NCBI GenBank assembly: GCA_029975965.1 | Contig: JARKOV010000044.1 | Location: 1-13,022 of the forward strand | DNA length: 13,022 nt | Direction of reading: 5' to 3' | Source: Anaerolinea sp. | GTDB taxonomy: Bacteria > Chloroflexota > Anaerolineae > Anaerolineales > Anaerolineaceae | Shown here: piece by piece, positions 2-13,022 of the stretch | Layout of the letters: each line of letters opens with the position of its first letter | How positions within the stretch are numbered: position 1 is the stretch's first letter | The notes under the pieces: model-generated | What the model was told of the DNA's origin: nothing | Database searches by the model: none | Seen by the model: only the letters and a program-made list of their open reading frames with translations | Position numbers and translations under genes: made by a program

Positions 2-520
2 GAGCAAGTGCGCGAAATACTGAAATCGATGCACGCCACCGCCCTGTTCGTCACCCACGACCAGGAGGAAGCCATCTACATGGGTGACCGCATGGCGGTA
101 GTTCAAGCCGGTCGAATCGAACAGATTGGCGCGCCCGAAGAGGTGTTCCACCGCTCTCAGACCCGCTTCGTAGCCGAGTTCATGGGCAACAGCGACTTCC
201 TCTCCGGTTGGATAACTTCGGAAGGCGTGCAGACCGAGATCGGGCTGCTGCCTCAGGCGGTAGACTGGCCCTCCGGCTCCCCGGTTGAGGTGGCCGTTCG
301 CGCCGACGATGTGGATTTCGAGCTTTCCGGCGAAGGCAGCGCCCAGATTGCCGCATGCCACTTCCGCGGCGCGTTCAACCTTTACCGCTTGCAATTGCGC
401 TCGGGTGAAGTGGTGCACGCCCTGAAACCCCACACTTACCAGGCTGCGCCGGGCGAGCGCATCCGCGCCTATGTCAGCGCCGGGCATCCGCTGGCGATAT
501 TCCCTAAGACGATCGTGTAA
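2..520 (+). CDS. ABC transporter ATP-binding protein, C-terminal part (5' truncated by window edge)
   Basis: This is the C-terminal end of an ABC importer ATPase of the MalK/PotA/FbpC type, which hydrolyses ATP on the cytoplasmic side to drive solute uptake. The frame is open back to the window edge, so the Walker A, Q-loop, signature and Walker B motifs lie outside. What is visible is the switch histidine (H-loop) in VTHDQEEA near the start, then the typical DRMAVVQAGRIEQIGAPEEVF stretch, split here by GDR at its front, and a C-terminal TOBE-like beta domain of about 100 residues ending at FPKTIV. A GTG at position 8 is only an internal codon, not a credible start. The transporter's substrate cannot be told from this fragment. 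The gene is convergent with the beta-galactosidase downstream, which by itself does not show that it moves sugars. The family call is secure. Confidence 0.9.
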   Translation, partial: EQVREILKSMHATALFVTHDQEEAIYMGDRMAVVQAGRIEQIGAPEEVFHRSQTRFVAEFMGNSDFLSGWITSEGVQTEIGLLPQAVDWPSGSPVEVAVRADDVDFELSGEGSAQIAACHFRGAFNLYRLQLRSGEVVHALKPHTYQAAPGERIRAYVSAGHPLAIFPKTIV

Positions 521-524
521 TTAG

Positions 525-566
525 TTTTCTGCATTATGTGGGCTTTGCATCAGATAATGCAGAAAA
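525..566. repeat. 42-bp palindromic element, copy A (13-bp stem, 16-nt loop)
   Basis: Perfect 13-bp inverted repeat (TTTTCTGCATTAT at 525-537, its complement at 554-566) around a 16-nt loop that begins GTGGGCTTTGC. It sits 4 nt after the ABC ATPase stop codon. The same architecture and the same loop core occur inverted at 4877-4918. It has T-rich 5' and A-rich 3' edges, the wrong polarity for an intrinsic terminator on either strand, so a repeat or protein-binding site is more likely. Confidence 0.8.
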
Positions 567-624
567 ATTGAAATACAATCCCAAAGACGCTACCCGACAC
601 CCGTTGACCGGCAGCGGCGATCCA

Positions 625-3148: not shown

Positions 3149-3203
3149 GTAGCTGCTCAGCCAGAGGTGCAAGAGACTTCTCCTCTATCCACTGAGCAGT
3201 TAC
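3149..3203 (+). repeat. Interspersed palindromic repeat, copy 1 (complete)
   Basis: A 55-nt element with a 12-bp outer stem (GTAGCTGCTCAG against CTGAGCAGTTAC, one G-T wobble) and an inner part CCAGAGGTGCAAGAGACTTC followed by TCCTCTATCC that can form a nested AGAG/CTCT hairpin. The same sequence recurs inverted at 9968-10015 and as a 5' half at 12925-12954, so this is a repeat family and not a chance hairpin. It lies upstream of the regulator promoter. Confidence 0.85.
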
Positions 3204-3224: not shown

Positions 3225-3252
3225 TTGACATTTTCAATAATGATAATATAAT
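3225..3252 (+). promoter_or_regulatory. Sigma-70-type promoter of the regulator-CPBP operon
   Basis: TTGACA at 3225-3230 and TATAAT at 3247-3252, both perfect consensus hexamers, with a 16-bp spacer. Transcription would begin near 3259, about 30 nt before the ATG at 3290. The -10 box and spacer are inside the palindrome at 3230-3278, so a protein bound there would block RNA polymerase. Confidence 0.8.
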
Positions 3253-3278
3253 ATGATTATATTATTATTATTGAAAAT
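3230..3278. promoter_or_regulatory. 49-bp near-perfect palindrome, probable autoregulatory operator
   Basis: Two 23-bp arms (3230-3252 and 3256-3278) flank ATG at 3253-3255; only one position in 23 departs from perfect symmetry. The arms are AT-only except for a few bases, beginning ATTTTCAATAAT and ending ATTATTGAAAAT. The dyad centre (3254) is at the -10 box, and the RBS AGGAGG (3281-3286) follows directly. Because the predicted start site is near 3259, the transcript would lack the left arm, so the dyad most likely acts as DNA. A dimeric winged-helix protein, the product of the next gene, is the obvious candidate binder (inference). Confidence 0.75.
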
Positions 3279-3869: not shown

Positions 3870-4703
3870 ATGAACGCACAATTCTGGACTCTCTTTGGTA
3901 TTTTGTTAGCCGCAGGGCTGTTCGCGTCGGTTGCCGTGCTCCCTTATTCCCTGGCCATCAATCCCGGGGCTGTCGACCAGTTGAAAGCCAACCTGGCCCA
4001 AAAAGGCAGCCGCCTGCCGGCGATGCTGGTGGTCGTCCTGGCCAGCACCTTGCAGGCCGGTTTATTGATCGCGATAGCCATCTATTTTGGCCTGCGCGCC
4101 ACCCGGGCGATCGGGTTGGGTCTGCCGGTGCTGGATGCCTGGCTGACGGGGACGAGCGCGTTGCCGGCGATCCTCTCCGGGCTTCCCGCGGCGCTCCTGG
4201 TTGGGTTGGGCGCCGGTGTGGTCATCCTCGCCCTGGAGCGGTTCTACTTCCAGCCGCGCCTGCCCGAAGCCTTCCACAATGTGAAAACGAAGCAAGCCAC
4301 CTGGAAGCGCATGCTGGCCTGTTTTTACGGCGGAATTTACGAAGAGCTGCTCCTGCGCCTGTTCGTCATGAGCGGGTTGATCTGGTTGATCGGCCTCGTC
4401 TGGCCTTCACCCGCCGGGCAGGTGAATCCGGGTGCATTTTGGACGGCGAACATCATCGCGACGCTGCTCTTTGGCCTGGGGCATTTACCGGCAACCGCCC
4501 GGATGGCGCGGCTGACCCCATTGATCGTCTCGCGCGCGATCATCCTCAACGGCCTGGCCGGCCTGTTCTTCGGAGTGCTGTTCCTGCGCTACGGCCTGGA
4601 GTTCGCCATCCTCGCCCACTTCTGCATGGACATCCTGATCCACATCATCCTCCCGGAGCTGACACCCGCCAGTGTTGCCAAGGTGCAGGCGCAAGAAGCG
4701 TGA
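3870..4703 (+). CDS. CPBP-family intramembrane metalloprotease (Abi/Rce1-like)
   Basis: A 277-residue multi-pass membrane protein with the CPBP motifs: motif 1 EEx3R at residues 158-163 (GIYEELLLRLF), motif 2 FxxxH with His205 (LFGLGHLP), and motif 3 HxxxD with His250 and Asp254 (LAHFCMDILIH). Hydrophobic segments are seen at about 7-30, 50-75, 97-121, 165-180, 193-206 and 226-260, the catalytic motifs being in the C-terminal half as usual. Family members cleave substrates within the membrane; in bacteria roles include peptide maturation and immunity to self-made peptides. No peptide precursor gene is visible nearby. The gene follows the winged-helix regulator after 10 nt, so the regulator probably controls it. 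A strong hairpin ends the unit. Active-site residues are intact, so it is probably functional; the substrate is unknown. Confidence 0.88.
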   Translation: MNAQFWTLFGILLAAGLFASVAVLPYSLAINPGAVDQLKANLAQKGSRLPAMLVVVLASTLQAGLLIAIAIYFGLRATRAIGLGLPVLDAWLTGTSALPAILSGLPAALLVGLGAGVVILALERFYFQPRLPEAFHNVKTKQATWKRMLACFYGGIYEELLLRLFVMSGLIWLIGLVWPSPAGQVNPGAFWTANIIATLLFGLGHLPATARMARLTPLIVSRAIILNGLAGLFFGVLFLRYGLEFAILAHFCMDILIHIILPELTPASVAKVQAQEA

Positions 4704-4741
4704 CTCACCGGACCAACCCAAGCAATTCCCTTTTTTTATGC

Positions 4742-4776
4742 GTAGCTCAAAGACCATCCGTTGGTTTTTGAGCTAC
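4742..4776 (+). terminator. Strong hairpin after the regulator-CPBP operon
   Basis: GTAGCTCAAA pairs with TTTGAGCTAC, then a G-T wobble and ACCA/TGGT continue the helix to 15 pairs around the loop TCCGT. It lies 38 nt after the protease stop codon. The T-run that follows is poor (ATCTTTAA), while a run of seven T lies just before it (4731-4737), so termination is likely but not certain. Confidence 0.5.
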
Positions 4777-4876
4777 ATCTTTAAGTAGACGGTGAAAGCC
4801 AATCTCTGGGACGAAACCGTTACAATGGAGAAAGGTAAAATTAGAAATCAAGATCAGTGAGGGATTGTGCAATATA

Positions 4877-4918
4877 TTTTCTGTAAAATGTGGAGCAAAG
4901 CCCACATTTTACAGAAAA
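4877..4918. repeat. 42-bp palindromic element, copy B
   Basis: A perfect palindrome with TTTTCTGTAAAAT at 4877-4889 and its complement at 4906-4918; the pairing extends inwards by GTGG/CCAC and outwards by one A/T, giving 18 pairs. Read on the minus strand the loop is GTGGGCTTTGCTCCAC, matching copy A (525-566) in its first 11 bases. Total length is the same 42 bases, and the differing stem bases stay paired. It is 27 nt before the start of the next gene, and a TACAAT (4821-4826) upstream could be a weak -10, which would put the element in the 5' leader. Confidence 0.8.
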
Positions 4919-4945
4919 TGTGATACGCACTCCAGTGAGGATTCC

Positions 4946-5449
4946 ATGGACGAGCAGCCGGTGGGTCGAGTCGATGAATCTGCGGGTGAAGCGACAGAGT
5001 TCAGGTCGGGATTTACCCTGAAGGTGGACGCCAAACAAGATGCGGTTGTCAGGCAGGCGGGTGCGGCGGTCATCGCTGCGGGACATAACATCAAGATGAC
5101 AGGCGGAGGTGGGCTGCTGATCGCCTCCGGACGCGACATGAGAGTCTCCAACTCGTTTTCTCCGGTAACGGTGGTGGGGTACAACATGAAAATGTTCAAT
5201 TGCACCGTCCTGGGGATGAACGTGGGAGGCAACGCGGAGCTGGCCAACGCCACCACGCTCGTTTCGGCGAGCAAGGCGGTCCAAACCCGGAACAGCTCCA
5301 TCGGGGTGGTGCTGGCGGGCAAAGTCGAATTGGGGGAAGGCGCGCGCGTCCTGCTCAATACAAAGCAGGCCGCCGCCTGGGGAGTCGCTTTCGGAGTTGG
5401 GTTCGCGCTCCTGAGCTGGCTGTTGCGGTTGAAAACGCCTGGAAAGTGA
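4946..5449 (+). CDS. Small beta-rich protein with C-terminal membrane anchor, unknown function
   Basis: A 167-residue protein I do not recognise. Residues 20-135 are rich in Gly, Val, Asn and Ala and show a short periodic pattern (VIAAGHNIKM, LLIASGRDMRV, PVTVVGYNMKM, CTVLGMNVGG, GVVLAGKVELGEG), suggesting a small beta-solenoid resembling bactofilins, though no bactofilin signature can be confirmed by eye. Residues 142-161 form one hydrophobic helix followed by RLKTPGK, so it is probably tail-anchored with the bulk on one face of the membrane; there is no N-terminal signal peptide. The ATG at 4946 with TGAGG five to ten bases upstream is chosen; an upstream TTG (4865) would translate through the palindromic repeat and is unlikely. 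The acyltransferase gene follows after 84 nt with two small hairpins between. A scaffold-like role is a guess. Confidence 0.7.
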   Translation: MDEQPVGRVDESAGEATEFRSGFTLKVDAKQDAVVRQAGAAVIAAGHNIKMTGGGGLLIASGRDMRVSNSFSPVTVVGYNMKMFNCTVLGMNVGGNAELANATTLVSASKAVQTRNSSIGVVLAGKVELGEGARVLLNTKQAAAWGVAFGVGFALLSWLLRLKTPGK

Positions 5450-9762: not shown

Positions 9763-9799
9763 AGGGCTAACGATATTTCTTAACGGTATCGTATAGCTT

Positions 9800-9833
9800 C
9801 TCAGCCAACGGTGTCAGTGACACACCCGCTGAG
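9800..9833 (+). repeat. Palindromic repeat with CTCAGC/GCTGAG arms and internal hairpin
   Basis: CTCAGC (9800-9805) pairs with GCTGAG (9828-9833); inside, GTGTC-AGT-GACAC (9811-9823) forms a perfect second hairpin. The outer parts (CTCAGCCA and CCCGCTGAGC) are shared with the repeat at 9968-10015 read on the other strand, but the core differs, so this may be a second subtype of the family. CTCAGCCAACGG also occurs at 7985-7996. Confidence 0.65.
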
Positions 9834-9967: not shown

Positions 9968-10015
9968 TGCTCAGCGGGTAGAGGAGAAGCCTCTTGCACC
10001 CCTGGCTGAGGAGCA
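9968..10015 (-). repeat. Interspersed palindromic repeat, copy 2 (inverted)
   Basis: Reverse complement of copy 1 (3149-3203) with a few substitutions: GTGCAAGAG, CTTCTCCTCTA and CTGAGCA are all shared. Outer stem TGCTCAGC pairs with GCTGAGGAGCA with one bulge; an inner AGAGG/CCTCT hairpin has the loop CTTCT. It lies between the lipid genes and the ATPase. Confidence 0.85.
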
Positions 10016-12924: not shown

Positions 12925-12954
12925 GTAACTACTCAGCCAGAGGTGCAAGAGACT
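12925..12954 (+). repeat. Interspersed palindromic repeat, copy 3 (5' half only)
   Basis: Matches bases 3149-3178 of copy 1 at 28 of 30 positions, ending after GAGACT. The right half is missing and is replaced by the perfect hairpin at 12958. Confidence 0.8.
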
Positions 12955-12957
12955 GAA

Positions 12958-13000
12958 TTTGAGGTGTTTGCGGGGGCGAAGCCCCCGCAAACACCTCAAA
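12958..13000. terminator. Perfect 20-bp hairpin with GAA loop
   Basis: Arms at 12958-12977 and 12981-13000 are exact reverse complements, GC-rich near the loop (GCGGGGGC-GAA-GCCCCCGC) and TTT/AAA at the base. Only a broken T-run follows (CATTTTATTATA from 13009), so intrinsic termination is possible but not canonical. It could also be a mobile palindromic repeat unit. It ends 22 nt from the window edge. Confidence 0.55.
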
Positions 13001-13022
13001 ATAAGGGCATTTTATTATACCC

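Follow-up and report, generated by a model that had tools for sequence, protein, structure and literature searches.

A 70-bp, almost wholly palindromic repeat family with 8-bp target-site duplications in Anaerolinea sp. and a relative

The accessible part of PMC10969869 describes MITEs as typically shorter than 500 bp, with terminal inverted repeats (TIRs) of about 4-30 bp. MITEs are also flanked by a target-site duplication, which decays as the insertion ages. The family analyzed here, two copies of which (E1 and E2) lie in the window (the whole 13,022-nt stretch analyzed), has this size and such TIRs, a flanking duplication, an AT-rich composition, a mainly intergenic location and no internal transposase. 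Among prokaryotic MITEs, those with 7-9 bp direct repeats (QMITE2, Coxiella) have the same short size, TIRs and a similar duplication length and are, as far as the same text goes, likewise AT-rich compared to their host, mainly intergenic and able to form a stem-loop (PMC10969869). However, QMITE2 has TIRs of 23-29 bp that enclose a core of 113-145 bp, whereas the whole unit is 70 bp here and has almost no core; furthermore, unlike in the QMITE2-type elements of this excerpted source (PMC10969869), the inner stem is kept here by pairing and not by sequence, and no parent insertion sequence was found.

According to the available portions of PMC3733652 and PMC6006769, the foot of a REP hairpin is marked by a tetranucleotide, GTAG/GTGG (or CGTC). 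The REPs and REPINs mobilized by a REP-associated tyrosine transposase (RAYT) resemble our family in being mainly intergenic multi-copy hairpins with a variable stem and an apex near the Pseudomonas core (PMC3733652, PMC6006769 and PMC3116915, each in part), but they differ from it since our family has a duplication and lacks this foot, and since the search of the parts covered revealed no RAYT flanked by copies. RUP, Correia/NEMIS and ERIC are also small elements with TIRs and a target duplication; according to the passages at hand of PMC2229807, they have TA termini, in contrast to the GAT...ATC ends and the 8-bp duplication found here. Compensatory changes in the stems of short repeats have been reported for Borrelia plasmids (PMC2674063, in part). 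No fitting Chloroflexota palindromic MITE or covarying MITE hairpin was found in the literature covered, most subscription journals being outside this coverage.

The 70-bp unit in the window

Two 42-bp palindromes in opposite orientation had been described in an earlier note on this DNA, and both were found again at the same coordinates and with the same sequences (cores in Table 1). E1 and E2 are identical in TTTTCTG, GTGGGCTTTGC and CAGAAAA and differ in the middle of the stem on both arms. With at most three mismatches, TTTTCTG-N6-GTGGGCTTTGC occurs twice in the window compared to 0.02 times expected, and two matches were reached in none of the 200 shuffles of the window. The likeness of E1 and E2 extends past these palindromes, ACAATCCC being common to both: the 42-bp palindromes are the cores of a larger 70-bp unit flanked by an 8-bp target-site duplication (Table 1). 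Of the 12,902 pairs of window positions located 70 apart, a single one matches at 8/8, which corresponds to the flanks of E2, and 19 match at 7/8 or more.

Table 1. Features of the window related to the two 70-bp copies
Feature	Position	Strand	Remark
E1, 70-bp palindromic copy, probable MITE (core 525-566)	511..580	-	R2 65.8 bits; left end GATTGTATTTCAAT at 580
E2, 70-bp palindromic copy, probable MITE (core 4877-4918)	4863..4932	+	R2 72.6 bits
E1 target-site duplication, left copy CCTAAGAC	503..510	.	7/8 with 581-588
E1 target-site duplication, right copy CCAAAGAC	581..588	.	pairs with 503-510
E2 target-site duplication, left copy CAGTGAGG	4855..4862	.	8/8 with 4933-4940
E2 target-site duplication, right copy CAGTGAGG	4933..4940	.	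same 8 bp as 4855-4862
ABC-transporter ATPase ORF, C-terminal part (TOBE_2 domain)	8..520	+	end inside E1
167-aa ORF, family unassigned, directly 3' of E2	4946..5449	+	no Pfam match

The RNA folds of both copies (58 nt each) are stable, with z-scores of -4.5 (+ strand) and -2.7 (- strand) for E1 and of -7.0 (- strand) and -5.8 (+ strand) for E2. E1 and E2 both keep their 13 basal pairs; a G:G mismatch follows in E1, and the helix of E2 reaches 17 pairs; 15/16 and 16/16 arm positions are paired in the window copies. The outer 13 positions of the unit are only partly complementary (7/13 in E1 and 7/13 in E2). Since the longest coding stretch in any frame of E1 or E2 does not exceed 23 codons, no transposase gene lies inside. 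The loop had been proposed to be kept by its sequence. GGGC...GCCC is indeed conserved, but the apex is mostly paired and its two central nucleotides vary; in the family consensus, GTGGGGC-NN-GCCCCAC forms the upper stem and the apex, and GTGGGCTTTGC corresponds to this part and is therefore not a kept loop.

E1 contributes the final two codons and the stop of the ABC-transporter ATPase ORF; if E1 and one target copy were removed, this frame would close with five different residues followed by a stop of its own. The right copy of the E2 duplication is plausibly, by its position, a putative Shine-Dalgarno sequence for the 167-aa ORF. This ORF has six homologues at E <=0.001; it gave eight matches in 301 genomes of the order of genome G226, the best (42%, with one internal stop) being in genome G564, and none in 47 genomes of another order of the phylum, reached via the CPBP protein.

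Copies, duplications and insertion sites in a relative

The exact motif of the two copies matches 20 times in genome_contigs, but none of these matches is palindromic (2-7 of 16 arm positions) and, as their arms do not pair, they were taken as chance. Two of them belong to records titled Chloroflexi and Dehalococcoidia, which provided the starting genomes of the search for relatives. The DagK of the window has a match in 206 of the 251 sampled genomes of the phylum of the Chloroflexi record, the best (54%) being in G226. The GH35 protein of the window shares 68% identity over 778 residues with that of G564, a divergence too high for the DNA comparison that would reveal an empty site by synteny.

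A covariance model built from E1 and E2 only (R1) was run at E <=0.001 against 147 genomes of the family of G564. It revealed 37 matches in G564, one weak match in G631, which is a hairpin with other ends, and none in the other 145 genomes. The search for further copies that the earlier note had put forward thus found many of them in this relative. After removal of G631 and of five second-strand repeats, 24 G564 copies out of 30 loci were aligned with E1 and E2 (26 rows), and this alignment gave a second covariance model of 74 positions (R2). In G564 overall, R2 gave at least 150 matches (150 of the 1,015 candidates were scored, both strands of a palindrome being often counted). In seven whole contigs (2,136,548 bases), it detected 113 places (53 per Mb), 70 at E <=0.1 in three contigs and 43 at E <=0.01 in four; two clear ends were found in 86 places and not in the other 27. 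Some of the 113 places may be foreign to the family, because both models respond as well to unrelated hairpins whose apex is GGGC...GCCC (in G617, in G631 and at 12945-13014 of the window). When R2 was run at E <=1e-4 on 400 genomes of the order, up to 12 candidates being scored in each, only G564 and G617 were positive, and the G617 matches are another hairpin family with other ends. E1 and E2 are the copies seen in the source organism, that is, in its 13,022-nt window. Three patterns searched in viral_contigs and one G564 copy searched in plasmids and phages gave no match.

Element ends were placed at GATNGTG in the G564 copies, and 43 of the 86 copies with two clear ends measure exactly 70 bp. 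A 21-bp end pattern with at most two mismatches has 112 matches in G564 compared to one for the reversed control. The left and right flanks of 78 copies of 67-73 bp were compared in registers 3 to 15: their identity is 0.776 at 8 bp versus 0.241-0.348 at the other registers and 0.263 for shuffled flank partners. At least seven of the eight flank bases are identical in 41 of the 78 copies versus 14 of 2,340 shuffled pairs, a control figure on the high side because self-pairs were left in it; at most four of the eight are identical in 13 copies. A previous flank test with a free register had given a score of 8 or more in 20 of 70 places versus 0.44% in the control. The 41 target sites with duplications of at least 7/8 share no strong motif.

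The copies are mainly intergenic: 40 of the 113 places lie for more than half of their length inside greedy ORFs, compared to 88.9% of 5,000 random positions. For 65 places, the overlap with such ORFs is below one tenth. The elements have a GC content of 44%, versus 64.2-64.7% for three G564 contigs. Among the end-pattern matches listed, five (one probably due to chance) are on C4 (886 kb) versus 15 on C68 (368 kb), for which a binning difference or an insertion bias is possible.

Several other hairpin elements were observed. On contig C43 of G564, a 200-bp end pair (210482-210681) is a nested insertion: a hairpin element of another kind, with arms GGTTTTCTCGCTAA, interrupts a family copy. G617 contains, at L220, L221 and L222 near 1501-1574, another dispersed family of hairpins (GTTGTTCTGTTTTTTGTTGGG...), whose ends are possibly GTGCCAAAAG...CTTTTGACAC. 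The window itself carries a second palindromic family of about 55 bp (3149-3203, 9968-10014 in inverted orientation, 12925-12954 and 9793-9822). One of its copies begins with GTAG (GTAGCTGCTCAGCCAGAGGTGCAAGAGACTTCTCCTC...), which makes it a better REP candidate than the palindrome initially reported; no match to this GTAG-type family was found in 2.2 Mb of G564. A very stable hairpin (12953-13005; 25-bp arms at 92%, -40.4 kcal/mol, apex GGGGGCGAAGCCCCC), matched only weakly by R2, lies directly 3' of a truncated GTAG-like repeat copy. Lastly, a candidate operator, judging by its appearance, is a near-perfect AT-rich palindrome (3230-3278; 23-bp arms at 96%, 3-nt loop) just upstream of an HTH_20 regulator (3290), next to a CPBP-type protease.

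Ends kept by sequence and inner stem kept by pairing

Two-sided changes affect 11 of the 27 pairs in the 26-row alignment and are confined to the inner helix. None of 500 shuffles matched the two-sided count, the pairing or the covariation score, and the count of further pair types was reached in nine of them. The cells of the inner helix comprise 22 two-sided changes, four one-sided changes (G-U) and 33 unpaired cells. As R2 itself rewards pairing, the test was repeated on copies retrieved by their ends only: the outermost 13 bp at each end, spaced at exactly 70 bp, were searched for in 2,215,349 bases of G564 with an end profile trained on copies found by R2. This search gave 28 copies at 70 bp, versus 0, 0, 0, 2, 0, 1, 0 and 1 at eight other spacings. 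In their inner stems, 518 of 588 cells are paired, compared to a mean of 459 and a maximum of 480 in 2,000 permutations; mirrored changes amount to 36 cells (permutation mean 5.5, maximum 16) and 25 classes (mean 4.8, maximum 14). Therefore, the earlier claim that changes on both arms preserve the helix holds in these 28 copies, where pairing and mirrored changes both exceed the permutations.

The ungapped set (44 copies: 43 of G564 and E2) separates the two parts of the unit. At the outer positions paired in the consensus, three changes are mirrored versus 87 single; in the inner stem without its central dinucleotide, 59 are mirrored versus 118 single, and positions 14-34 contain 60 mirrored cells versus 12.8 expected if the arms were independent. 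As single changes dominate outside and mirrored changes are in excess inside, the ends behave like a protein site kept by its sequence and the inner stem like a helix kept by its pairing. The evidence from G-U pairs is mixed (four one-sided against 22 two-sided changes in the 26 rows, 27 of the 118 single changes in the larger set). This share leaves the choice between DNA and RNA unsettled, and the element may have an RNA role.

The 17 copies with perfect duplications already carry a mean of 1.12 mirrored changes per copy. Over 43 copies, neither mirrored pairs (rho 0.23, p 0.14) nor broken pairs (rho 0.20, p 0.19) correlate significantly with the decay of the duplication. Many of the mirrored changes may thus predate the insertions.

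Mobilization, alternative readings and significance

We consider, with a probability of about 0.87, that E1 and E2 were inserted as members of a single MITE family, whose 70-bp units are non-coding, almost wholly palindromic and moved in trans. A transposase supplied in trans, probably of the cut-and-paste type, would recognize the terminal ~13 bp (GATNGTG...) and cut the target with an 8-bp stagger, which would generate the 8-bp duplication, the unit being inserted mainly between genes. The upkeep of the stem could result from a hairpin or cruciform used in transposition, from transcript protection or from arm-to-arm copying. The parent insertion sequence would have ends GATNGTGTNTATC and 8-bp duplications. 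A variant of this scheme, in which the hairpin is part of the transposition substrate (ends read by sequence, a folded stem of any letters and an 8-bp stagger into double-stranded target), seems rather unlikely; if true, it would be a hybrid of REP-like hairpin recognition and cut-and-paste transposition.

The parent element was searched for by pairs of ends 100-6,000 bp apart in 2.2 of the 4.6 Mb of G564, which gave 28 pairs, none of them with a good duplication. Among the 25 listed, the two pairs that scored highest for a partial duplication (5.5 and 4.5) enclose ORFs that look by eye like ordinary enzymes; a 231-bp pair in C65 has no duplication. PF00872 (IS256-type) and PF01609 (DDE_Tnp_1) have no match in G564, the same searches being positive in six and nine of 14 control genomes, respectively. 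The 2.2 Mb of G564 contain no paralogous ORFs (at least 150 aa and 70% identity), so that this assembly has probably collapsed or lost its true insertion sequences.

The earlier note had suggested a REP element recognized by a transposase, i.e., moved as single-stranded DNA by a RAYT. The element is indeed a short, mainly intergenic hairpin present in many copies, and G564 has two Y1_Tnp matches over the cut-off. Furthermore, the Pseudomonas REP core GGGGGCTTGCCCCC, as given in the accessible part of PMC3116915, is similar to the apex GGGGCTTGCCCC, a likeness that we interpret as probable convergence on a stable apex. However, no GTAG/GTGG/CGTC tetranucleotide is found at the foot in the 26-row alignment, and all 70 listed copies are more than 5 kb away from the two Y1_Tnp places, one being 2 kb from a third, sub-threshold fragment. 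Transposition by IS200/IS605 chemistry inserts DNA without target-site duplication, so that the duplications of the 78 copies argue against this route. Taken together, the duplications, the lack of a REP foot and the lack of a tyrosine transposase gene among the copies point to a non-autonomous transposon (a palindromic MITE) rather than to a REP, the REP reading being in our view very improbable.

The stable folds, the covarying stem and the location of E2 in a gene leader and of E1 at a gene 3' end would also suit a structured RNA, a terminator or another cis-regulatory hairpin that is kept for its function and is not mobile. This is hardly credible, given that the whole window has no Rfam match at the gathering threshold, that no terminator-like or sigma-70-like site was found around E2 (4690-4960) and that the distribution is patchy (two positives in 400 sampled order genomes at E 1e-4, up to 12 candidates being scored in each, and one of the two with another hairpin). 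A 70-bp unit with 8-bp duplications at unrelated sites refutes such an origin, co-option of single copies being possible. Insertion of palindromic DNA by an integrase-like, non-classical enzyme (e.g. Cas1-like) acting on the hairpin would account for a unit that is nearly all hairpin with a stem kept by pairing, and for the failure to find a classical transposase by the 2.2-Mb end pairs or by PF00872 and PF01609 in G564. It is nevertheless quite improbable, since the ends are conserved by sequence like transposase sites (three mirrored versus 87 single changes) and collapsed insertion sequences could sit in the many small G564 contigs that read as N.

Short palindromic repeats are easily labelled as REPs by their shape alone. 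The flank register test distinguishes a transposon that makes duplications from a REP with sequence data only. Under the favored reading of a MITE family moved in trans, the evolution of the unit as two modules (ends by sequence, stem by pairing) provides a natural data set on hairpin upkeep in bacterial mini-transposons, of which it can be asked whether transposition chemistry, transcript protection or arm-to-arm copying is the reason. The family is also usable as a marker of insertion events within a Chloroflexota lineage.
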